Shown here: positions 3,441-21,136 of the stretch, one piece after another
Position numbering within the stretch: the first letter of the stretch is position 1
Layout of the letters: each line of letters opens with the position of its first letter
IMG/VR virus record: IMGVR_UViG_3300047328_000111
Coordinates: 1-27,576 of that record
Length of the DNA stretch: 27,576 bases
Reading direction: 5' to 3' (one strand)
Source: a virus
The notes under the pieces: model-generated
Told to the model about the DNA's origin: nothing
Databases searched by the model: none
The model's input: only the letters and a program-made list of their open reading frames with translations
Translations under genes and position numbers: made by a program

Positions 3441-3776
3441 TCAGACGGCCGCGCCCGCCTTGCCTTCCGACCCTGCAGACTTCGTCAGATGCTTTCGAAT
3501 GTGGACCGTTCGCGAATTCTCAGCGACGCCGACAATGCCGTGAGGGAAGCCCGCGAACGTGTCGATAACTGCGCCGGCTTCGTGGTGTTCACTATTCACG
3601 CCGCCATTTTGCGGGTCTTGCACAAGGATGACGACCGACCCGCGCGCCACAATGATGACGTGCGAAGTTTCTTCGTCGTGATTGTGCATCTGAAGAATGT
3701 CGCCCGGCTTGGCGAAGTCATAAATCAGCGTGTTCAGATCACCGATCTGCGCGGGCGTCACCGTTGGCTGTGCCAT
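3441..3776 (-). CDS. Small single-domain cupin protein
   Basis: 111 residues; ATG at 3776 begins 1 nt after the TAA of the 2OG-oxygenase gene, so the two are coupled. Residues about 25-46 fit cupin motif 1 (G, five residues, HNH, acidic run, then Gly). A second motif with FPHG follows near residues 76-79 and a late His-rich strand near 93-97. Cupins bind a metal through these His/Glu residues; small ones act as isomerases, dioxygenases or sugar-binding proteins. Here it lies between a 2OG/Fe(II) oxygenase and a small unknown gene, in the tail-fibre region, so it may help modify fibre proteins or surface sugars. The substrate is unknown. Confidence 0.65.
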   Translation of the reverse strand: MAQPTVTPAQIGDLNTLIYDFAKPGDILQMHNHDEETSHVIIVARGSVVILVQDPQNGGVNSEHHEAGAVIDTFAGFPHGIVGVAENSRTVHIRKHLTKSAGSEGKAGAAV

Positions 3777-3777
3777 T

Positions 3778-4353
3778 TTACATTCTTTCGACAGGGCCGA
3801 ACGCCCATGCCACAAGGCTAAGGCGCGTTCCTTTGGTCACTGGACGAACTTCGTGGATGACGTGGCTTCGGAAGAACGTGGTCAGCCCTTTCCGCTTTGG
3901 CATCGTCACCGGGTTAAGATTGTGCGGGTACAGCAGAAGTTCGCCGCCGTCGTATTCTTCGGCGTCCGAAAGCTGAACCGTCATGCTCAGCTTGCGGTCA
4001 TTGCTGGGCTGCTCGCCGTAACCGTTATCAGTATGCGCACCGTAGTGCCCCGCGCTGTCGCCTTCGTATGCGGTAAGCTGTAGCTGGCCCATCCCCGCAA
4101 GGTTCAGGTGGAAGTGATCGTTCGCGAACTTAAACGCGCCTTCGATATGCCGATAAAGCCATTCGGTTTCCGGCGAAGGGGCGATGAAGCGAACACGGCT
4201 ATCGCGAATGCCTTTGTCCACTACATCGCAGCCGATGGCGCCAACAGTTTCCGGCTTCGGAAGATTGACGATCTTCGCGAGTTCATCGGCTGAAAATACT
4301 TCGTCCGAAGCGATCCACGCTTGCGGCGGAAGCCGCGAGAATTTCCAGACCAT
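3778..4353 (-). CDS. 2-oxoglutarate/Fe(II)-dependent oxygenase, prolyl-4-hydroxylase-like
   Basis: 191 residues; ATG at 4353, 1 nt after the stop of the collagen-like gene. The double-stranded beta-helix motif is complete: HYGAHTDNG gives His107 and Asp109, and VIHEVRPVTKGTR gives distal His167 plus Arg177, which should bind the 2OG carboxylate. Preceding LTAYEGDSAGHYG and following GGELLLYP blocks match the PKHD/P4H-like branch. Family knowledge: these enzymes hydroxylate proline or other side chains using O2 and 2OG; phage versions are often encoded near tail fibres. Inference: the directly preceding gene product, with nine X-Pro-Gly sites, is the obvious candidate substrate. Other targets (host or sugar) cannot be excluded. 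Confidence 0.85.
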   Translation of the reverse strand: MVWKFSRLPPQAWIASDEVFSADELAKIVNLPKPETVGAIGCDVVDKGIRDSRVRFIAPSPETEWLYRHIEGAFKFANDHFHLNLAGMGQLQLTAYEGDSAGHYGAHTDNGYGEQPSNDRKLSMTVQLSDAEEYDGGELLLYPHNLNPVTMPKRKGLTTFFRSHVIHEVRPVTKGTRLSLVAWAFGPVERM

Positions 4354-4354
4354 C

Positions 4355-4753
4355 TTAGGAGACGTTCACGACGACAGACCCAGCCGGGCCGGGACTTCCC
4401 GGCGCGCCGGGCGACGAATACGGCCCGCCATTGCCGCCGGGTCCGCCAGCGCCGCCAGCGCCGACGACCACAGTGATACCGCTACGCGGCTGTATATACG
4501 TCGCGCCGCCGCGCAGGTATGTCGCCGTCCCCGCGCCCCTGAAGCTTGATGGGGAGCCGGGGCTGCCGGCGAAGCCGCATGTTGCCGAATTAGGACCGCA
4601 GTTAAAGCACGGATTGCCGGGCGCCCCCGGTGCCCCTGGCGATCCCGGCGTAACCGTTGCGGCGATCTGCCGAAAGCCCTTCGGAACCGTGTAGGTGAAT
4701 GTTCCGGCAGTGCTGAAGGTCTGCGATCCGACGATGACAGCGAAGCCGCGCAT
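4355..4753 (-). CDS. Collagen-like, Gly-rich tail-tip/adhesin protein
   Basis: 132 residues. The start, FSTAGTFTYTVPKGFRQI (about 13-30), matches the short beta lead-in of phage Gly-rich tip domains. Then come Gly-X-Pro triplets at 37-48 (GSP GAP GAP GNP) and around 63-68, a middle beta region (71-97), a polyglycine stretch (98-110), and a second triplet block at 113-125. Pro in X-Pro-Gly context occurs at 36, 39, 42, 45, 65, 105, 115, 118 and 121. Three Cys (49, 52, 59) sit just after the first block. Its position after a fibre gene resembles the gp38-type adhesins that cap fibres with polyglycine-II sheets. It may be a fibre tip, a collagen trimer, or both. Confidence 0.6.
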   Translation of the reverse strand: MRGFAVIVGSQTFSTAGTFTYTVPKGFRQIAATVTPGSPGAPGAPGNPCFNCGPNSATCGFAGSPGSPSSFRGAGTATYLRGGATYIQPRSGITVVVGAGGAGGPGGNGGPYSSPGAPGSPGPAGSVVVNVS

Positions 4754-4756
4754 GAC

Positions 4757-6241
4757 TTACCACCCCGAAACGGTGACGTTCACAGCGACAAGCTGAAGAA
4801 GAACCTTTGTGTTCGTCAGAACCTTCGCGTGGAAGAAGGACCACTTGCTTGCCGCTGTGCCGATGACGAACGCAGTATCGCCATCGTGGCAATAACCCGA
4901 CGCGGACACGTTCAGCGTCCGGCTGCCAGTGCCGTCCTGCTTCACCGCGAGCATGATTTCGCGCCCCGGGATCAGGCCCGCAGACGGGAACGCCAGTGTT
5001 CGGTTTCCGGCCATGCCGGCGGGCGCAAGACGGAAGTTCTTGCCCGCCGTGAAGTCTGGCGTCATCGTCGCCGCGTCCGCAATATCTACCCACGCTTCAG
5101 CGTCGGCGATCGCCTTAGCCGTCGCGCCCTTGGCGTTGTTCGTGCCAGTCCACAAGTCGGCAGCGGCCGCGGCGGTGAAGCCGCCAGCGCCGGAAACGGC
5201 GGCGTCCACATAAGCCGTTGTCGCGATCTTCGTGGAATTGTCGTTCGCCGTCGGCGTAGGCGCGGCCGGTGTTCCAGTGAATGTCGGCGACGCGAGCGGT
5301 GCCTTCGCCGCAAGCGCGCTTGTCACGGCGGACGCATCCGCCTTTGAAGCGAGATCAGCGACAAGCCCAGACACGTCACTTTCGGTAATCGCAAGCGCGG
5401 TCTTGAGACCAGAGGCGGTGATCGCGCCGGTGAGCGTCGCGACGGATTGGACAGCGGCGACGATATTCCCACCCGAACTGGAAAGACCCGCACCCAGCCC
5501 GAGCGTTGCGGCAGCGCCAAGGCCGGACACATCGCCGGCGGCGATCGACAGGAGTGCTTTCATCGCTGCGTAGTTCACCGCGGTGAGTAGGCTGCGGCCA
5601 TTGGCGCTTGCATCCGTAATGTCAGCGGCAGCGATCGCCAAAAGCGACTTCATGGCCGCGTAGTTGGACGCCATGATGAAGCTGCGGCCGTTGGCCGAAG
5701 CATCCGAAATTAGCGAGGCAGTGACGGACGACAGCGACGCGAGCGATCCGAACGTGAAGCCGACGGCTGCCTGCACTTCCGCCAGCGTCAGACTACCCTC
5801 GAGCTTCTGCCATTTTCCGGCATAGGTCGTGTTGCCGGGATTATCGACGCGGGCATAGATGCTGTCGCCTACGCTGAAGGACACACCATTGACCGTGCCA
5901 GCCACGGAAACGACCCAGAAATTCCCTTTCTTGGCCGTCGCGCTCGGGAACGTACCTACTGATGCGTCCCAGACATCCTGAAACAGCGCCGCACCGACCA
6001 GCAACGCATCCACGTAAGCCTTTGTCGCGGCGTCGGCGCTGGCAGACGGCGCAGCCAGGCCGGTGATGCGATGGAGCGCCATCGCAATATCGCCGGCCAT
6101 TTCCCCACCGATGAGGGATAACTTACCGGCGAGAGCCTCTTCGACTTCCGTACCCCACGTCCGGATTTTCGGCTTGCTCGGCTTAAGCGGGAGCCCGTCC
6201 GGACCGTCATCGGCCCAGATTTCGTTCGCGTTGAATTGCAT
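4757..6241 (-). CDS. Tail fibre protein with 30-residue internal repeats
   Basis: 494 residues, Ala/Ser/Thr/Gly-rich. The N-terminal ~80 residues carry a DGPDGLPLKPSKPKIRTWG start and a DAATKAYVDALL helix common at fibre bases. Two near-identical 30-residue repeats lie at about 178-207 and 208-237 (DASANGRS ... NYAAMK.LL.IAA). Around 317-352 is a PLASPTFTGTPAAPTPT / TKIATTAYVDAA unit typical of phage fibre shafts. The C-terminal 120 residues are beta-rich and could be the receptor-facing or trimerising end. The next gene encodes the Gly-rich tip. Function in host recognition is inferred from composition, repeats and position. Confidence 0.7.
   Translation of the reverse strand: MQFNANEIWADDGPDGLPLKPSKPKIRTWGTEVEEALAGKLSLIGGEMAGDIAMALHRITGLAAPSASADAATKAYVDALLVGAALFQDVWDASVGTFPSATAKKGNFWVVSVAGTVNGVSFSVGDSIYARVDNPGNTTYAGKWQKLEGSLTLAEVQAAVGFTFGSLASLSSVTASLISDASANGRSFIMASNYAAMKSLLAIAAADITDASANGRSLLTAVNYAAMKALLSIAAGDVSGLGAAATLGLGAGLSSSGGNIVAAVQSVATLTGAITASGLKTALAITESDVSGLVADLASKADASAVTSALAAKAPLASPTFTGTPAAPTPTANDNSTKIATTAYVDAAVSGAGGFTAAAAADLWTGTNNAKGATAKAIADAEAWVDIADAATMTPDFTAGKNFRLAPAGMAGNRTLAFPSAGLIPGREIMLAVKQDGTGSRTLNVSASGYCHDGDTAFVIGTAASKWSFFHAKVLTNTKVLLQLVAVNVTVSGW
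5531..5710 (-). repeat. Two 90-bp diverged tandem repeats in tail fibre gene
   Basis: The two units encode residues 178-207 and 208-237 of the fibre. Protein identity is high, but many third positions differ, so the duplication is old or held at protein level. Such units are natural sites for repeat-number variation in fibre shafts. Confidence 0.7.
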
Positions 6242-6245
6242 CGTC

Positions 6246-6563
6246 TCAACCCTGGGATTGCTGCGGCGTCAGCGGGTTTTCAGGAGAAAGGCCCAGCGCA
6301 TACGGATCGCCTGGCTTATTTATGAACACAGGGGTTCCGTTCGCGTCGAACCAGACTTCACCGCGGCGATCGGCGACAACGGTCCACTGGCCAGCGGGTC
6401 CAAGAACCGGAACTTCCCGCTCACCATACACGGGCGGCTCGACTTCCGTCGCATTGCCCGGAACCATATAGCGTGCCGGATCGGCCGGATCGCGATAACT
6501 GTCGTCGAGTGTCTGCGCATTCAGGAATGCGCGCGTCTCGTAGTCGAAAAGATAGATTCTCAT
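6246..6563 (-). CDS. Tail fibre assembly-like (chaperone) protein
   Basis: 105 residues from ATG 6563, which has GAGG 6 nt upstream; a TTG four codons earlier is less likely. MRIYLFDYETRAFL begins a short beta motif, followed by DPADPARYMVPGNATEVEPP and GQWTVVADRRGEVWFD, the layout of small phage proteins next to fibre genes that resemble tail fibre assembly proteins. These assist folding or trimerisation of the fibre. It lies between the collar-domain fibre and the second fibre, 4-8 nt from each. The long C-terminal domain of classical Tfa is absent, so a structural accessory role is also possible. Confidence 0.6.
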   Translation of the reverse strand: MRIYLFDYETRAFLNAQTLDDSYRDPADPARYMVPGNATEVEPPVYGEREVPVLGPAGQWTVVADRRGEVWFDANGTPVFINKPGDPYALGLSPENPLTPQQSQG

Positions 6564-6571
6564 GACCAGCC

Positions 6572-7639
6572 TCAATAGACGATGCAGGGCATGACGGCCG
6601 CATTGCGCGGCCGGGTTTCCGACGCGGTACCGGCGATGCTGATGTTTCCGCTGGCTGGCTGCGGAATGAGACCGTAGCCAGCGTCAGCTGCCGGAGCAAA
6701 GGGGCCACCAGCCTGTACCTGATAGCCGATCCCGCCAATCACGTTTGATGAGAAAGTCCCGGTATAGGGCCCAATGCTGTCCGCCTGCTGCTTGCCCAGA
6801 ACGCGCGACACGTCTATGCCGCGGCCATCGTCGAAGAAGCGCATGAATTCACCACGCAGATCGGGCAGACGAATCGTCGTGCTGCCATCGCCCGATGAGA
6901 ATGCGGTCCAAAGGCGCTTGCTGGCATCCTGCCAGTCTGTCTCGGAAACGATGCGGCCCGAATTGAGCGCGTAATCGGCCAAGGCCGGATAGGACGCGCG
7001 AAGGAAGGTCGCTCCATTGGCGCGTAGTGTGTACGGCAGCACCGAATTGCCAAGGCCCATCACCAGCTGACCGGTCACGCCGGGCTTCTGCACAATCGCC
7101 TGCGCCGGATTGCTGACCAGCAACACCTGGAACTTCGTGCCATCATAGGCGGCGAGCACCATGCTGCCTGCAATGAACGCGCCGGCCGCAAGATCGCTGC
7201 CGTCGATATTCACGACCGCTTTCGCTCCCTTGCTGTTGGCATTGAGCGTCACAGCACCGGTGTTGGCGTTAGCAATCTTCATCAGCAGCACCATGCCGAG
7301 ATAGAGATTGCCCGGGTTGGGCTCGAAGGTGCCGGTCAGTGCGTTCGTTCCCGCAACGCTGGCAAACGGAATGCTCAGCGTGAAGTTCAGCGCCTCGAGA
7401 CCGTCGCCGACGACCTGCGTCGCCTGCTGTGCGGCAATCGCCTTGATCGCCTGCCACAGCTGCGTGAGGTCCGTCGCACTCGGCGTCAGACCAGCTTCGG
7501 TGATGACCTTCAGGATTTCGCGCTGCGGATGCTCAATTGAAGCTGCGGGCGGAATCGAGCCAGGCGTTCCCGTGGCGGGATTGCCATTGACATAGGGCGC
7601 GTCTTCATTCGCCGCACCGAAGGGCTGATTGTATTTCAT
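6572..7639 (-). CDS. Tail fibre/collar-domain protein
   Basis: 355 residues from ATG at 7639 (MKYNQPFGAA), preceded by AAGAGA; longer frames overlap gp48. The N-terminus with Pro/Asn/Gly and an AASIEHPQREILKVI helix is usual for Mu/P2-like fibres attached to the baseplate. The C-terminal third has the phage tail collar signature: YPALADYAL, DGSTTIRLPDLRGEFMRFFDDG, and ends ETRPRNAAVMPCIVY, close to fibre C-termini of P2/Mu type. It is the first gene after baseplate gp48, the usual position. Role: host receptor binding or short collar fibre. Confidence 0.85.
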   Translation of the reverse strand: MKYNQPFGAANEDAPYVNGNPATGTPGSIPPAASIEHPQREILKVITEAGLTPSATDLTQLWQAIKAIAAQQATQVVGDGLEALNFTLSIPFASVAGTNALTGTFEPNPGNLYLGMVLLMKIANANTGAVTLNANSKGAKAVVNIDGSDLAAGAFIAGSMVLAAYDGTKFQVLLVSNPAQAIVQKPGVTGQLVMGLGNSVLPYTLRANGATFLRASYPALADYALNSGRIVSETDWQDASKRLWTAFSSGDGSTTIRLPDLRGEFMRFFDDGRGIDVSRVLGKQQADSIGPYTGTFSSNVIGGIGYQVQAGGPFAPAADAGYGLIPQPASGNISIAGTASETRPRNAAVMPCIVY

Positions 7640-7676
7640 CGTTATGGTCTCTTGGAGTTGACGGAAAACGCGAGGA

Positions 7677-8441
7677 TCAGGGCGTTCCGGCCATCGGATT
7701 GGCAGCGTCGATGCCGGAGTAGTCGAAAGCGATTTCCGTGTGCGCCGGCTTCCAGCGCCGGAGCACACATTCAAGGTCAGTCGCGATCGCTATGCGCAGA
7801 TGAGGGTCAACGCCGGTCTGACCAGAAGCCACGCGAAACCAGCTCAGGCGCGGCGATGACAGCGACACAGTCCAAAAGAAGCGTACTTCAGGCGGCCCAA
7901 TTTCCCAGCGAGGCCCGCCATAGGGCACGAAGTCCTGACCGTAGCCGCGCCCATCGCTGAACACGGTATCGTCCGAATGCGGAGCGCCTGCGGGATATAC
8001 CGGGGGAATCCAGGCGCGCGTGTCGCCGACCTGCGATATGCCGCACATGAACGGCGCGTGTTCGCGGATGGCGATCGTGTAGCCCAGCTTTGCCGCGACG
8101 CCGATGAAGAATGCGCGCGACTGACCACCTTCGGTCGTCATGCGATTGAGCAGCGCGGTATGGCGCGCTTCGATCGTCAGCGGCTCGGCGACGCAGGGAT
8201 CCGGGAGACCGAAGGCCCGCTCCCACTCCGGCAACAACTCGATTGTCGCGCGTGGATCGCTTTCGCGCCTCAGCAGGTCATCCACACGGCCGTCAACGAA
8301 GCCGAAGATTTCGGCGAGGCCGCGGATAACGCGCATCAGCACGCTTTGCGGGTCGCGCGGCCAAGCGATGCCGCGCGGCAGCAGCGCCGCTAGAGCGTGC
8401 GCGTACTCCGCGCCCCCTCGGCGCAGCTGCTGGTCAGGCAT
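7677..8441 (-). CDS. Mu gp48-like baseplate/tail protein (DUF2313, YmfQ family)
   Basis: 254 residues; ATG overlaps the end of the gp47-like gene by 8 nt. AEYAHALAALLPRGIAWPRDP at the start and the ELLPEWERAFGLPDPC block (about 70-86) followed by RHTALLNRMTTEGGQS are diagnostic of the YmfQ/DUF2313 family, equivalent to Mu gp48 and P2 gpI-like proteins. These link the baseplate wedge to the tail fibres. Order gp44-45-46-47-48 then fibre is exactly that of Mu. The C-terminal half contains a beta-rich insertion with several Gly/Pro turns. Confidence 0.88.
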   Translation of the reverse strand: MPDQQLRRGGAEYAHALAALLPRGIAWPRDPQSVLMRVIRGLAEIFGFVDGRVDDLLRRESDPRATIELLPEWERAFGLPDPCVAEPLTIEARHTALLNRMTTEGGQSRAFFIGVAAKLGYTIAIREHAPFMCGISQVGDTRAWIPPVYPAGAPHSDDTVFSDGRGYGQDFVPYGGPRWEIGPPEVRFFWTVSLSSPRLSWFRVASGQTGVDPHLRIAIATDLECVLRRWKPAHTEIAFDYSGIDAANPMAGTP

Positions 8442-9492
8442 AGGTGATCGTTCCCAGCACCGGGATATGACCGGGCGACTGCATCGCGGTAGAGCTGAAG
8501 GTCAGTTCGTGATGGTCTTCGCCAATGGCGCCGCTGATCGCTTCGTCAACCCATGACCGGTAGACGGTCTGGCCTGGCGGACAACGTTCAATGAGCATCT
8601 GCTTTACGGCCGCCGCGATGGCGGCGCGGGTGGCGGCGTTGTCGGTGCTCAGGGACGTGATGGTGAAATTTACCGGTTGAAGGATCGGTGCGACGACAAA
8701 GAAATCCTTCACTGCGACCGGACGCACCGTGTCGAGATAGGCGCGCACTGCATCGATGTCGCCACTTTGCGGAATGCCAGATTGGCCGGCCCGCAATTCA
8801 TCCATCATGAAGCGAACGGTAACGGTGCCGATGCCCATTTCGTTCGGATACGACCAAGCCCGGCTGACGCCGGAAATTTTGCGTGTCCACGCGACATAGT
8901 CGTCAGCATCGCCACCCATGGGAGGGCGCTGGATGCGAAACAAGACACGTTCCCGCAGACTATCGTCGCTCTCGATATCGACGCCGCCGATCAGCGAGAC
9001 TACGACGGCAGTTGCATCGACGCCGGCAACGGCACCCGAAAGATTAAGGGAGGCGCCGCTATCCTGATTGCCCGCCGATCCCGGCGTCAGCGCTCGGATG
9101 GCCGCCGGCGTAGCCGCACTGCCAATCGTGATCTGCTCGGTCGTCTCGTACTGCACACCACCGGTCGCAGCGGCGAGCCTTGTCCCGGCCGGCAGAACCG
9201 TCCCATCGATCCCCGTGAAAGTGGCCGTGCCGGCGGCGTATGTCGCGTCCTTTCGGCCACCGATCCAGATATTGGCGTGCCGGTCGAGCCATTCCCGTTC
9301 TGCCGTATCGGGCAGGAGTTGCTGCGAGACCCAGAACACATATCGCAGCACAAGATGGGCCAGCGCCGACATCGCGTCCGCGACCTTCGGCAGCACACCA
9401 TTTCCGATGACGGAAGCGCCCTGCAGTGCGGCCGCAACGTTGTCGCGCGTAAGACGGCGCACATCGGCAAGGCTTGGAGTCGTCCAGGGCAT
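8434..9492 (-). CDS. Baseplate wedge protein J, Mu gp47-like
   Basis: 352 residues from ATG at 9492 (MPWTTPSLADVRRLTRDN), 1 nt after the gp46 stop; frames before it are shadow. Matches the baseplate J-like family: AEREWLDRHANIWG-type motif (about 65-76), GTATFTGIDGTVLPAGTRL, GVQYETTEQITI, and the VVSLIGGVDIESDDSLRERVLFRIQRPPMGGDADDYVAWTR stretch in the middle, which contains the family hallmark. The C-terminal half covers conserved PNEMGIGTVTVRFM and the helical end. Role: wedge component that triggers sheath contraction. Length is normal. Confidence 0.92.
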   Translation of the reverse strand: MPWTTPSLADVRRLTRDNVAAALQGASVIGNGVLPKVADAMSALAHLVLRYVFWVSQQLLPDTAEREWLDRHANIWIGGRKDATYAAGTATFTGIDGTVLPAGTRLAAATGGVQYETTEQITIGSAATPAAIRALTPGSAGNQDSGASLNLSGAVAGVDATAVVVSLIGGVDIESDDSLRERVLFRIQRPPMGGDADDYVAWTRKISGVSRAWSYPNEMGIGTVTVRFMMDELRAGQSGIPQSGDIDAVRAYLDTVRPVAVKDFFVVAPILQPVNFTITSLSTDNAATRAAIAAAVKQMLIERCPPGQTVYRSWVDEAISGAIGEDHHELTFSSTAMQSPGHIPVLGTITYA

Positions 9493-9493
9493 G

Positions 9494-9988
9494 TCAGTTT
9501 CCGCTTTCCGTCCAGAGATCGAGGAAGCGCAGCGCGATCGCCGGAAGCGGCCCGCGATACAGCACCACCTTGACCGACACCGCATTCACTCCATCGCGCG
9601 ACGCGAGCACGTCGATGCGCGACACGATCCGTTGATCAATGAACGGTTGCAGCGCCTCGCGAACATAATCCTCCGCGCGGATCAGCAGCCCGCCTTCCCG
9701 CGCCGCCATTCCGGTGATCTTGGCGCGCTCGAGAAGCCAGAGCCGCGTCCCGATCGGCCAGCCATCCCAGATTTCCTGAACGTCCGTATCGCCCCACCAG
9801 CCGCGCCGGTCGGTGCTGCCCGGATCCGGGAGAACATCGTCCGCTTCAGCCAGTCGATCCGTACCCAACGCGACCATGACCGCTGTTGCCAGATCGTGAC
9901 TGTCGTCGAGTGAGCCATCGCCGAGCATCAACCAATCGGCTGCGGTTCCGATCAGTTCAGCCCGGGTCACAACACGAATATCAGTCAT
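9494..9988 (-). CDS. Baseplate protein gp46-like (P2 W-type)
   Basis: 164 residues. The GTRLWLLERAKIT and RAEDYVREALQPFIDQRIVSRIDV blocks are those of the phage GP46 family, with a downstream KVVLYRGPLPAIALRFLDLW beta-helix end. These small wedge proteins correspond to T4 gp25/P2 gpW and sit between spike gp45 and J-like gp47. ATG overlaps the stop of the gp45-like gene by one base. The N-terminal half has a W-G-D cluster typical of the family. Normal length. Confidence 0.88.
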   Translation of the reverse strand: MTDIRVVTRAELIGTAADWLMLGDGSLDDSHDLATAVMVALGTDRLAEADDVLPDPGSTDRRGWWGDTDVQEIWDGWPIGTRLWLLERAKITGMAAREGGLLIRAEDYVREALQPFIDQRIVSRIDVLASRDGVNAVSVKVVLYRGPLPAIALRFLDLWTESGN

Positions 9989-12269: not shown

Positions 12270-12745
12270 GTATTGACGCCGTCCAGCACAGCCGCAGCGG
12301 CAGCGGCGGCGGCATCGGCTCCCTTACGAACGACCGCCGCCGTATCGGTCGCGACCGGCAATGACAGGACGCCGGCTTCGACGAAGTTCATTTCGAAGGT
12401 GGCCATGCCGCCCTTCTGGCGATTTTCGATGACGGTGAAGCCGTTGCAATTGGCCCGCAGGGAACCCCACGACGGGTGCACCAGCATCCCCGCCCCTTCG
12501 GCCTCGAGCGCCCGGATCAATTCCGTGCGCTGCGCTTCGTAATCGTCTCCCAGAACATAGCCGGTGATGACGACGCGACGGGCACGGCGCCCCATGTCCT
12601 CCGTATACGGATCATCGCGTTTCGCGAATTCGAACACCGCATCGCGGCGTCCGCCGATTCCGGCGGCCTGCTCGACATGAAACGGAGCCCCGCGATAGGA
12701 TGCGCGCCGCAAGTTCCGACGCCAGGTCGTGTCAGGGAGAGGCAT
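12266..12745 (-). CDS. DNA circularisation protein N-terminal domain (Mu gp43-like)
   Basis: 159 residues from ATG 12745 (MPLPDTTWRRNLRRASYRG). The blocks RGAPFHVEQAAGIGGRR, FAKRDDPYTEDMGRRARRVVITGYVLGDDYEAQR, HPSWGS and GGMATFEMNFVEAG are the DNA_circ_N signature. After about residue 137 it becomes Ala-rich and ends in VLDGVNT at a TGA that overlaps the next ATG. Upstream there is no recognisable ribosome site: the 15 bases before the ATG lie inside the oppositely oriented gene at 12747, only 1 nt away. The insertion of that gene may have removed the original leader. Start is supported by the normal family N-terminus. Confidence 0.85.
   Translation of the reverse strand: MPLPDTTWRRNLRRASYRGAPFHVEQAAGIGGRRDAVFEFAKRDDPYTEDMGRRARRVVITGYVLGDDYEAQRTELIRALEAEGAGMLVHPSWGSLRANCNGFTVIENRQKGGMATFEMNFVEAGVLSLPVATDTAAVVRKGADAAAAAAAAVLDGVNT
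12672..12701 (+). promoter_or_regulatory. Candidate sigma70-type promoter for the antisense cargo gene
   Basis: TCGACA (12672-12677, five of six to TTGACA) and TAGGAT (12696-12701, four of six to TATAAT) with an 18-nt spacer. It lies 45 nt before the plus-strand ATG and inside the gp43 N-domain gene. Weak match; a guess that would explain independent expression. Confidence 0.3.
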
Positions 12746-12746
12746 A

Positions 12747-13253
12747 ATGCGGCTGCTAGTGGCTATGCTGCTTTTGGCCCCAACCGTCACGTCGGCTCAG
12801 CTAATTGAGCGCGATGTGCCGATTGTTGAAGCTGCAGCTTTCTTTCTGACGGGTGATCCGACGCCGAAGGTCAAAGGGACTACGGTCGTCACTCGGAACG
12901 GAAAGGCGATTTTTGCTCCTACCGAAAGTGAGCCGTGCAAGATCGCTTTAATCGAAAGCGATACAGCTAAAACTCTATTCGTTTTCGATTTTCGGAAACT
13001 GAACGCCGATCCGACTGTCAGGAACGTGACCTTCATCACCGTTCATGGCGATCCGGCCGTGTGTGAGATGACTTTATCCGATTTTTCTTCTGCAAATTTT
13101 CGCCCGGAGAACGTCGTATCACAGCGCTGCTCTAAGGAAGCTACGTTCACAGTAGTTGGGAACGTCGGCAGAGTGCTTTGGGCGTTCGATTATATCCAAA
13201 GGCGCTATTGCCGCGGGCTCCCCGCATTGCCGCGATACGTTGACCCGTACTGA
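12747..13253 (+). CDS. Plus-strand secreted protein, probable phage 'moron' cargo
   Basis: 168 residues on the opposite strand to all other genes. ATG at 12747 has a very strong AGGGAGAGG ribosome site 4 nt upstream; an earlier frame start at 12729 lies before it. The N-terminus is a Sec signal peptide (MRLLVAMLLLAPTVTSA, likely cut before Gln18). The mature part is beta-strand-rich with Cys at 64, 106, 128 and 155, allowing two disulfides, and there is no membrane segment. The sequence is visibly richer in A/T than its neighbours. It ends 2 nt before the tape-measure stop and starts 1 nt from the gp43 start. No family recognised; a periplasmic superinfection-exclusion, immunity or host-fitness factor is a fair guess. 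Confidence 0.8.
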   Translation: MRLLVAMLLLAPTVTSAQLIERDVPIVEAAAFFLTGDPTPKVKGTTVVTRNGKAIFAPTESEPCKIALIESDTAKTLFVFDFRKLNADPTVRNVTFITVHGDPAVCEMTLSDFSSANFRPENVVSQRCSKEATFTVVGNVGRVLWAFDYIQRRYCRGLPALPRYVDPY

Positions 13254-19018: not shown

Positions 19019-20452
19019 TTACGCGCCGGGGTTTTTGTACAGGCCGCGCCAGTGCAGCGCCTTCACGCCGGCATCGAGGCGCACCTTGAACTCGGTGCCA
19101 TCGACGCTCCAGCCTTCGCGCTGATCCAGGAACGGCTCGCTGTTGCCGTCGAGGTAGGTCACTTCGACGGTGTCGGCCGCATTCGGATCGGCGGCGAAGT
19201 ACCACGCCGTTCCGGCAAGACGCGCATCCGAAACCGGGGTCGCGATGTTGCGCACCGGGTTCGGCGTTCCCGCCGCATCACCCGGCGTCTTCTCCGAGTT
19301 GATGATGGTCAGGGCAAGGTCCAGCAGCTCGGGCGGGAGCAGCATGAACTTCGGCCGCAGATTCAGACCCGCGACGATGTTGTCGGGGTCCTTCTGCCGC
19401 GACATCGCGACCCGGCCGGCGCCGAGCGTGGCAACCGACGGAGCGCCGCCCGATGCCGCCAAGTTGCCGTGAGCGGAATTGAACAGCGCGACGCTGTCCT
19501 GCATGACCGGATTGCTGTTCAGGATCGCGTAGACCAGATTGCCGATCGTCCGCTTCGCAGCGCGGCCCATGCGCTGCGGAATCTTCGTCATCACCGACAT
19601 GTCGTCATTGATGATCGCCTGACGCGTGATGGCGAACATCTTGCCGTAGGTCGCGATCTGAACCGAAACGCCGGTATCGCCGATGGTGCCGTATTTGTAC
19701 TCGGCGCCCTCTTCCACCTTGTCGAGACCCGGGAACAGGTTGAGATCGACGCGGGAAATCGGCCGGAAATCCGACGCGGTCCCCTTCGCGGTCCACTGAT
19801 CGAAGGTCTCTTCGGCTTCCTGGTAGCCGATCATCATCGCCTTGTGCGCGACGTTGCCGAGCACGTTGCCGAAGTCCGACGACGAATGCATGCCGGCCGC
19901 GTTCCGGAACGTGAAGGCGTGGCCGATCATGGCCATGCGGTCCATCTGGCCGCTGCGGACATTGACCGTGGTCAGGAACGAACGGGCGAGTTCGGCGAGG
20001 GTGAGCCCCGCAAACTCATTACCACGCGCGTTCTGAAGCGCTTCGCCGCGGAGCATGCCGGCCCGCAGCAGGAGGCCCTGCTCCGCACCCTGACGCCACT
20101 TGTCCTGGGCATCGGCCACGACCGTGACCTGCCCATGCGACGGCGCGGTGCCGCCATTGGCATTTTGGGTTTCGGCCCACTTGTCGATGATGCGCTGGCG
20201 CGCGTCATTGACCGTGACACCGTCGCGGATCATTTCATCCGCGAAGTCCTGGCTGAGACGGGCCGAACGCACCGCCGAATTGATGGTGGCAACGCGTTCG
20301 CGTTCCGCACGCACGCCTTCCTGGCGGATAGCGTTCTGGTCAACGTTGACCGTGACCGGCGCGCCGGCGACGGCCGCAGGGGCCGGTGCAGGCGGCGGAG
20401 CCGGGGTATTCTCGGCAGGAATCGTGCCCGCCGTCGTGGTCGCTTGAGGCAT
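19019..20452 (-). CDS. Candidate nested capsid protein from internal start in fusion gene
   Basis: Within the 705-codon fusion gene, codon 229 is an ATG (20450-20452) with AGAGAGGA 6 nt before it, at least as strong as the ribosome site of the full gene. Translation there would give 477 residues: a Pro/Ala linker, a helical scaffold/delta-like region (about 260-325 of the full protein), and the whole capsid domain, without the ClpP protease. Lambda Nu3 within C is the known precedent for such nesting. It lies exactly at the boundary between the protease and the linker, so it is unlikely to be chance. Confidence 0.6.
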   Translation of the reverse strand: MPQATTTAGTIPAENTPAPPPAPAPAAVAGAPVTVNVDQNAIRQEGVRAERERVATINSAVRSARLSQDFADEMIRDGVTVNDARQRIIDKWAETQNANGGTAPSHGQVTVVADAQDKWRQGAEQGLLLRAGMLRGEALQNARGNEFAGLTLAELARSFLTTVNVRSGQMDRMAMIGHAFTFRNAAGMHSSSDFGNVLGNVAHKAMMIGYQEAEETFDQWTAKGTASDFRPISRVDLNLFPGLDKVEEGAEYKYGTIGDTGVSVQIATYGKMFAITRQAIINDDMSVMTKIPQRMGRAAKRTIGNLVYAILNSNPVMQDSVALFNSAHGNLAASGGAPSVATLGAGRVAMSRQKDPDNIVAGLNLRPKFMLLPPELLDLALTIINSEKTPGDAAGTPNPVRNIATPVSDARLAGTAWYFAADPNAADTVEVTYLDGNSEPFLDQREGWSVDGTEFKVRLDAGVKALHWRGLYKNPGA

Positions 20453-21136
20453 AGCTTGTCCTCTCTGGGGTGATGCGGCGGGTGCCGCGGGGGCCGGGCT
20501 CTGGGCCCGGAGCTGTGCGGGCGCACGAAGAATGCGCGCCAAATCTTCTTTCTTCAGCGGTGCGTAAGCCGCCGTGCGGAGCGCTTCGGCGATCTGGTCG
20601 GCGAAGCCCTTTTCGACGCATTCCGCAGCGCCGAGAAAGGTTTCCTGCGACATCATCGCGCGGATTTCCTCCGGACTGAGGCCGGTCCGCTTTGAATAGA
20701 TATCGACGATGATCTGCGTCTGCCGATCGACTTCATCGGCCATGTCACGCATGTCTTCAGAGCCGCCGAACACAGCACCATAGACATCGTGGATCATCAT
20801 GCTGGCGTTGTCGGCGATGATGATCGTGTCGCCAGCCATCGCGATGACCGACGCAATCGACGCCGCCATGGCGTCGATCCGCACTTCGATCTTCTTGCCG
20901 CAAGCACGCAGCGCGTTGAAGATCGCGAGACCTTCCATCACCGAGCCGCCGGGTGAGTTGATCCGCACCACGATGGTGTCTCGATCGCTCAGCTCAGCGA
21001 GCGAGGCGATGACATCGATCGCACGGATCGATCCGTCCCAATCCGTTGAATCGATCACGCCGTAGATCAGAATTTGTCCGTTGATCACAAGCGAGCGGAC
21101 GTCGTCGCGCTCGTTGCGCGTTGCTGGTGCAGGCAT
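19019..21136 (-). CDS. ClpP-like prohead protease/major capsid protein fusion
   Basis: 705 residues; ATG 21136 with GAGGA just upstream, following the portal stop. Residues 1-200 are a ClpP/S14 protease: INSPGGSV (59-66) forms the oxyanion loop, AMAASIAS gives Ser93, and MMIHDVYG gives His116; the third residue may be acidic near 165. A Pro/Ala/Gln linker (about 205-265) leads to a helical scaffold region. The capsid domain then covers about 335-705, with WRQGAEQGLLLRAGM, the HSSSDFGNVLGNVAHKAM block and the GTAWYFAADPNAADTVEVTYLDG end typical of this HK97-fold group. Role: prohead assembly and maturation; the protease is presumably removed after cleavage. The fusion family is known; here a strong internal start adds interest. 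Confidence 0.93.
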   Translation of the reverse strand: MPAPATRNERDDVRSLVINGQILIYGVIDSTDWDGSIRAIDVIASLAELSDRDTIVVRINSPGGSVMEGLAIFNALRACGKKIEVRIDAMAASIASVIAMAGDTIIIADNASMMIHDVYGAVFGGSEDMRDMADEVDRQTQIIVDIYSKRTGLSPEEIRAMMSQETFLGAAECVEKGFADQIAEALRTAAYAPLKKEDLARILRAPAQLRAQSPAPAAPAASPQRGQAMPQATTTAGTIPAENTPAPPPAPAPAAVAGAPVTVNVDQNAIRQEGVRAERERVATINSAVRSARLSQDFADEMIRDGVTVNDARQRIIDKWAETQNANGGTAPSHGQVTVVADAQDKWRQGAEQGLLLRAGMLRGEALQNARGNEFAGLTLAELARSFLTTVNVRSGQMDRMAMIGHAFTFRNAAGMHSSSDFGNVLGNVAHKAMMIGYQEAEETFDQWTAKGTASDFRPISRVDLNLFPGLDKVEEGAEYKYGTIGDTGVSVQIATYGKMFAITRQAIINDDMSVMTKIPQRMGRAAKRTIGNLVYAILNSNPVMQDSVALFNSAHGNLAASGGAPSVATLGAGRVAMSRQKDPDNIVAGLNLRPKFMLLPPELLDLALTIINSEKTPGDAAGTPNPVRNIATPVSDARLAGTAWYFAADPNAADTVEVTYLDGNSEPFLDQREGWSVDGTEFKVRLDAGVKALHWRGLYKNPGA
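20453..20466 (-). promoter_or_regulatory. Internal ribosome binding site in capsid fusion gene
   Basis: On the minus strand AGAGAGGA is followed by CAAGCT and then ATG of codon 229. It is a near-consensus Shine-Dalgarno inside a coding region at the protease-linker boundary. Confidence 0.6.

Follow-up and report, generated by a model that had tools for sequence, protein, structure and literature searches.

We found that a gene for a 2OG/Fe(II) oxygenase (P0001) directly follows the gene for a Gly/Pro-rich putative tail-tip protein (P0002) in the late region of a tailed phage, and genomic linkage together with predicted fold strongly suggests that the two are paired as hydroxylase and tip protein. 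We put the probability that P0001 hydroxylates the X-Pro-Gly prolines of P0002 at roughly 0.6. The window, meaning the whole stretch of DNA analysed, is an IMG/VR virus record of 27,576 bases and carries on its minus strand the late genes of a Mu/PBSX-like contractile-tailed phage (Pfam and PHROG matches), a type assigned because Mu gp48-like and baseplate J-like proteins are present. The tail-end gene cluster contains the following features:

7677..9585, minus strand: baseplate, Mu gp48-like and baseplate J-like proteins (Baseplate_J and Mu Gp48 matches)
6572..7774, minus strand: tail collar-domain fibre (Pfam Collar, E = 2.1e-9)
6246..6575, minus strand: tail fibre assembly protein (PHROG 105, E = 8.7e-13)
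4757..6241, minus strand: 494-aa tail fibre gene, directly upstream of P0002 (PHROG 4209 and others, tail fiber)
4355..4753, minus strand: P0002, 132-aa Gly/Pro-rich putative tail-tip protein, the candidate substrate (weak Pfam Gly_rich_2 match, E = 0.04)
3778..4353, minus strand: P0001, 191-aa 2OG/Fe(II) oxygenase with a predicted prolyl-4-hydroxylase-type fold (Pfam, PHROG, model)
3441..3776, minus strand: 111-aa cupin-like protein downstream of P0001 (no match in Pfam or PHROG)

The order of transcription is collar fibre, fibre assembly protein, 494-aa fibre, P0002, P0001, cupin-like protein, a small gene and a CHAP-domain protein. P0002 and P0001 meet at TAA-G-ATG, a gap of 1 nt, and P0001 and the cupin-like gene at TAA-A-ATG (cupin start 3776); these junctions suggest that the three genes are translationally coupled. 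Two other genes of the window are worthy of note: a 174-aa plus-strand ORF with the signal-peptide-like start MLLLAPTVTSAQ, which lies among the minus-strand tail genes (12729-13253) and is possibly a moron gene, and a 705-aa minus-strand protein (19019-21136) which reads as a putative ClpP/S49-type protease fused to a major capsid protein.

The sequence-only reading had described P0002 as a collagen-like protein with nine X-Pro-Gly sites, and exactly nine were found in its 132 residues (P36, P39, P42, P45, P65, P105, P115, P118 and P121). The protein consists of an N-terminal 'GSQTFSTAGTFTYTVP' module, a GSPGAPGAPGNP block, a polyGly stretch, a second SPGAPGSPG block and a C-terminal strand. 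Its PG count of 9 exceeds the 3.6 of composition-matched shuffles (p = 0.002), and its density of 6.8 PG per 100 aa exceeds the 0.6 over all window proteins; Gly-X-Pro-Gly occurs 7 times in P0002 and 0 times in nine other listed window proteins, and P0002 is the sole X-Pro-Gly-rich protein of the window. The label “collagen-like” fits P0002 only in part: its in-phase Gly-X-Y runs reach five triplets at most, and its N-terminus is a Gly-rich tip module and not a collagen triple-helix domain. A Pfam search gave no collagen match in P0002, and its classification as a classical collagen was rejected for want of a long uninterrupted Gly-X-Y run. The match to Gly_rich_2 (PF21722) scored 14.4 bits (E = 0.04), under the gathering cut-off of 24.3, and the AlphaFold prediction of P0002 alone was uninformative (pLDDT 42). 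We defined an oxygenase-linked X-Pro-Gly tip family by an N-terminal GxQTFxxxGTFxxP module followed by GxPG blocks, and P0002 belongs to it, its N-terminal module scoring 18.8 bits where the best of 999 shuffles reached 5.6. Among the collected Gly-rich ORFs, its best phmmer match was in locus L425 (E = 4e-4), where an oxygenase is encoded 642 bp away.

As had been proposed, the gene starting 1 nt after P0002 encodes an intact 2OG/Fe(II) oxygenase carrying H107-x-D109, H167 and R177, four residues which are invariant across 70 aligned sequences. P0001 matches Pfam 2OG-FeII_Oxy_3 (E = 2.9e-16), belongs to phage PHROG 61 (E = 9e-25) and has the HxD...H iron triad, the basic 2OG residue and, in its model, the double-stranded beta-helix of the 2OG/Fe(II) oxygenase superfamily (PF13640). 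The AlphaFold (AF2) model built from 70 sequences had a pLDDT of 89 and a pTM of 0.86, and its top fold matches in the PDB were peptidyl prolyl-4-hydroxylases, including PHD2 with a HIF peptide; P. putida P4H with EF-Tu was among the best (TMq 0.74), as were PHDs from Dictyostelium and Trichoplax and a B. pseudomallei oxygenase without an assigned substrate. The number of PDB entries for PHD2 means that its rank alone overstates the likeness, but other, independent PHD/P4H entries give the same picture. Identity to the PHD2 and PPHD matches was about 16-23%. PiuC, a PKHD-type hydroxylase, was the best PDB match by sequence alone (E = 3e-6) but ranked only 39th when folds were compared (TMq 0.59); its PDB entries exceed P0001 in length by about 30-50 residues. 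The predicted fold, closest to those of peptidyl prolyl hydroxylases (PHD2, P. putida P4H), thus favours the prolyl-hydroxylase-like identity first suggested, and a substrate cannot be read from such modelled likeness by itself. A single-protein search of IMG/VR found no close relatives of P0001 and a GTDB scan gave one partial relative; identity to relatives is only 27-41%, and in the oxygenase tree P0001 is divergent and has no firm position.

As loci chosen by their oxygenase are biased by that choice, we also surveyed in the reverse direction, using DNA patterns blind to the oxygenase. Group H (n = 61 IMG/VR records) had GNPGNPG in a Gly-rich ORF, with contigs already fetched through the oxygenase excluded; group L (n = 46 records) had the N-terminal Gly-rich module GT[FW]TVPxGV and comprised Gly-rich, mostly Pro-poor tip proteins; and group C (n = 28 records) had classical collagen-like runs containing (Gly-x-Pro)3-Gly. 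Oxygenases were called at E < 1e-20 over all ORFs of the fetched stretch and then of the whole record. The fetched stretch contained an oxygenase in 37 of the 61 group H loci, and the whole record did so in 43/61 for group H, 3/46 for group L and 0/28 for group C (Fisher: H vs L, 9e-12; H vs C, 3e-11). It should be noted that group H records are related to one another, one cluster holding 50 of the 61 at 45% identity, so part of the linkage signal is common ancestry; when group H was merged at 60% identity, 14/25 had an oxygenase (7e-6 and 2e-6 vs the unmerged L and C controls). Within group H the oxygenase and tip genes are often adjacent and mostly less than 2 kb apart, with the oxygenase on either side of the tip gene and in several arrangements. 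This genome-neighbourhood survey, of a kind which the sequence-only reading had called for, supports a pairing of the oxygenase with X-Pro-Gly tips; a partnership with collagen-like fibres in general found no support in the 28 classical collagen-like records.

The composition of the neighbouring proteins differed in the same direction. Gly-rich proteins near an oxygenase and control Gly-rich proteins had equal Gly content (0.319 vs 0.315), whereas Pro made up 7.7% of the former and 3.2% of the latter, and PG per 100 aa was 3.0 vs 1.1. Pro was the most enriched of the 20 residues (2.3-fold, with the runner-up at 1.4-fold), and Gly-X-Pro-Gly accounted for 59% of PG sites near the oxygenase vs 27% in controls. 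At equal Gly content this enrichment points to proline as the probable target. The counts in the three groups and the Pro enrichment together indicate that the partner is a family of Gly-rich tip proteins with X-Pro-Gly sites and not the ordinary collagen of phages.

When loci were instead chosen by oxygenase, scanning IMG/VR with a four-sequence profile yielded 80 of them, with encoded relatives at 33-43% identity. Many were near X-Pro-Gly-rich Gly-rich proteins, with PG counts as high as 97 (L098), 67 (L117), 37 (L049) and 35 (L068), and some had no such protein nearby; among loci with 3 kb on both flanks, 16/41 had one within 3 kb. With a loose threshold (at least 6 PG and Gly of at least 0.25, within 3 or 6 kb), loci of the oxygenase and of baseplate J could not be told apart (16/41 vs 6/21 within 3 kb, p = 0.58). 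With a strict threshold (at least 10 PG and Gly of at least 0.30) the counts were 13/41 vs 0/21 (p = 0.003, uncorrected, the thresholds having been explored). Pro at the Y position, as in animal collagen, was tried as a signature and was unusable, being mixed among oxygenase loci; some relatives adjoin long fibres with Pro at the X position and others are without any Gly-rich neighbour.

Chromosomal homologues from Alphaproteobacteria had no X-Pro-Gly tip neighbour, several cyanophage copies lie among unrelated genes, and family members are also found by uvsW, neck or tRNA genes; the subfamily is therefore broader than tip use. The sequence-only reading had named, as evidence against the pairing, homologous oxygenases regularly found in phages whose fibre genes lack X-Pro-Gly repeats; many homologues do have no X-Pro-Gly protein nearby, which counts in part against the pairing and speaks against a one-to-one system. 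In the oxygenase tree, the label “X-Pro-Gly neighbour” switches at least 11 times on well-supported branches, a point in favour of the proposed hydroxylation. Two alphaproteobacterial contigs, L478 (G217:C40) and L479 (G383:C19), carry two or three tandem oxygenase copies and no Gly-rich neighbour.

Several loci (L118:4151-5909, L460:3220-4978, L125:748-1910 and L104:5878-7729) have two or three different 2OG oxygenases around an X-Pro-Gly tip gene, which suggests that there is more than a single modification; in L118 and L104 Pfam identifies them as one PF13759 protein and one or two of PF13640. Locus L382 (6558-11357, minus strand) encodes a 1599-aa protein with 105 PG (Pfam Collagen, E = 4e-61) 13 bp from an oxygenase gene, and is an extreme form of the pairing. 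The wider proposition, that a widespread group of tailed phages carries dedicated cassettes of one to several 2OG oxygenases which hydroxylate X-Pro-Gly sites in Gly-rich tail-tip adhesins, is one that we hold tentatively, at a little below even odds.

Cultured phages, cyanophages among them, contain similar neighbourhoods. In Synechococcus phage S-MbCM6 a 275-aa Gly-rich protein with 11 PG ends 22 bases before the oxygenase gene, and in S-CAM8, P-RSM4, S-RSM4 and phage MS29 a Gly-rich protein with 6-12 PG is encoded no further than about 3 kb from an oxygenase. The paired genes are 36/37 of KJ019063 in S-MbCM6, PRSM4_046/048 in P-RSM4 and SXCG_00049/00047 in S-CAM8; the isolates S-SCSM1, S-E7 and P-SSM7 have the oxygenase and no such neighbour. 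In P-RSM4 (L562, 34651-40406) and S-CAM8 (L561) the gene for a Gly-rich protein of the tail region, with 12 PG, precedes those for a carbamoyltransferase, an oxygenase of this subfamily, a “ferrochelatase”-like protein and further oxygenases. One P-RSM4 oxygenase is annotated as leprecan-like, leprecan being a name for prolyl 3-hydroxylase. A tblastn search of cultured phages with one linked Gly-rich protein gave no match.

The oxygenase was absent from 62 loci which share the baseplate J of the window (34-59% identity), an absence that is weak for some of them because many of these stretches are short. In those read in detail, the corresponding slot is filled by different fibre modules, among them collagen-like fibres in L501 and L532. 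Joint acquisition of P0001 and P0002 by the lineage of the window is the simplest interpretation, and relatives without the oxygenase would then be expected. The cupin-like gene, which had been suggested to take part, does not appear to be necessary: the nearest phage relative of its product, in podovirus ctEw122, likewise lies between tail and lysis genes, and no oxygenase was found within the 12 kb examined there. We think it likelier to be an independent late gene than a partner.

We propose that P0001 is a peptidyl prolyl hydroxylase which would act, probably by 4-hydroxylation, on the X-Pro-Gly prolines of P0002 and perhaps on neighbouring fibres too. The modification would be made within the infected cell, either as the tail assembles or earlier, and P0002 would then be carried in the virion. 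Hydroxylation could give a more stable Gly-rich tip, as polyglycine-II or short collagen-like helices, or could tune the receptor-binding surface, with a possible benefit to stability or adsorption.

An unlikely alternative is that the oxygenase targets a host protein such as EF-Tu, or the 2OG/nitrogen state of the host, and lies by the tail genes through the gathering of late accessory genes. One of the closest folds is that of P. putida P4H in complex with EF-Tu, cyanophage 2OG oxygenases have been proposed to act in 2OG/nitrogen signalling or DNA repair (PMC3037559), and the copies by uvsW, neck or tRNA genes and the alphaproteobacterial copies without a tip neighbour fit such a role. A host target leaves unexplained, however, both the Pro enrichment and the frequency of the oxygenase with X-Pro-Gly tips and not with Pro-poor tips or collagen fibres.

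Modification of some other tip or fibre residue (Asn, Asp, Lys or Thr), with proline purely structural, is more improbable still. Asn precedes Pro-Gly at 21% of sites in linked proteins, and neighbouring cassettes contain several different 2OG oxygenases; yet in P0002 the preceding residues are Ser, Ala, Thr and Gly and never Asn, Asn is just 1.2-fold enriched in linked proteins while Pro is the residue that stands out, and the best fold matches are prolyl hydroxylases. We regard as least probable that the two genes have no functional connection and simply both abound in the same lineages of aquatic phages. Linked records do cluster through shared genes, and cyanophages carry 1-5 such oxygenase genes, and in one case 24 (PMC9602691), but the short distances on either side of the tip gene in several arrangements, a p value which stays below 1e-5 after relatives are collapsed, and the occurrence of the pair in the window phage, which is of another lineage with sampled relatives lacking the oxygenase, all argue against hitchhiking.

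Hydroxylation of P0002 by P0001 would mean that some phages modify their own tail tips as animals modify collagen. If the wider cassette proposition is true, it would amount to a collagen-type tail maturation dependent on host oxygen, iron and 2OG, and many as yet unexplained phage 2OG oxygenases would gain a function. According to PMC9602691, the role of such oxygenases in viruses had not been the subject of specific study. The abundance of these oxygenases and the recurrent tip pairing make tip hydroxylation a concrete hypothesis, testable in cultured phages. No hydroxylase/tip pair in tailed phages was reported in the open-access papers searched.

Several known systems resemble this pair in part. 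Collagen prolyl 4-hydroxylase with collagen, and the viral P4H of PBCV-1, share the 2OG/Fe(II) enzyme type, the target (proline, in our case putative) and Gly-X-Pro-Gly blocks; unlike these, the present case is a tailed bacteriophage in which P0001 is a bare catalytic domain with, as its putative substrate, a short and Gly-rich protein of the tail tip. For 4-hydroxyproline in viruses there is a precedent in the enzyme of chlorella virus PBCV-1 (Eriksson 1999, as cited in PMC9301287), and that survey terms the viral use of prolyl 4-hydroxylase “cryptic”. The best structural matches of the P0001 model, HIF prolyl hydroxylases (PHD2) and Pseudomonas P4H (PPHD), have HIF and EF-Tu as known targets, whereas the putative target of P0001 is a structural tip protein. 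PHROG 61 and cyanophage clusters such as T4-GC 412 are of the same sequence family as P0001; published proposals for phage 2OG-Fe(II) oxygenases are metabolic or concern DNA repair (PMC3037559, PMC9602691), whereas here the pairing is with a tail tip. P0002 resembles the Gly_rich_2 (PF21722) class of polyglycine tail-tip adhesins (E = 0.04), but most sampled members of that type are Pro-poor and without an oxygenase, whereas P0002 is Pro-rich and has one. Phage collagen-like fibres, such as those of E. coli prophages, have Gly-X-Y repeats in tail fibres, as in P0002, and differ from the P0002 family in that 0/28 records carry the oxygenase. The E. coli prophage collagens are reported to show no Pro preference at the Y position, which was attributed to a missing prolyl hydroxylase, bacteria and viruses being stated to be without the required enzymes (PMC3368898); the pairing described here calls that claim into question for bacterial and viral collagen-like proteins.
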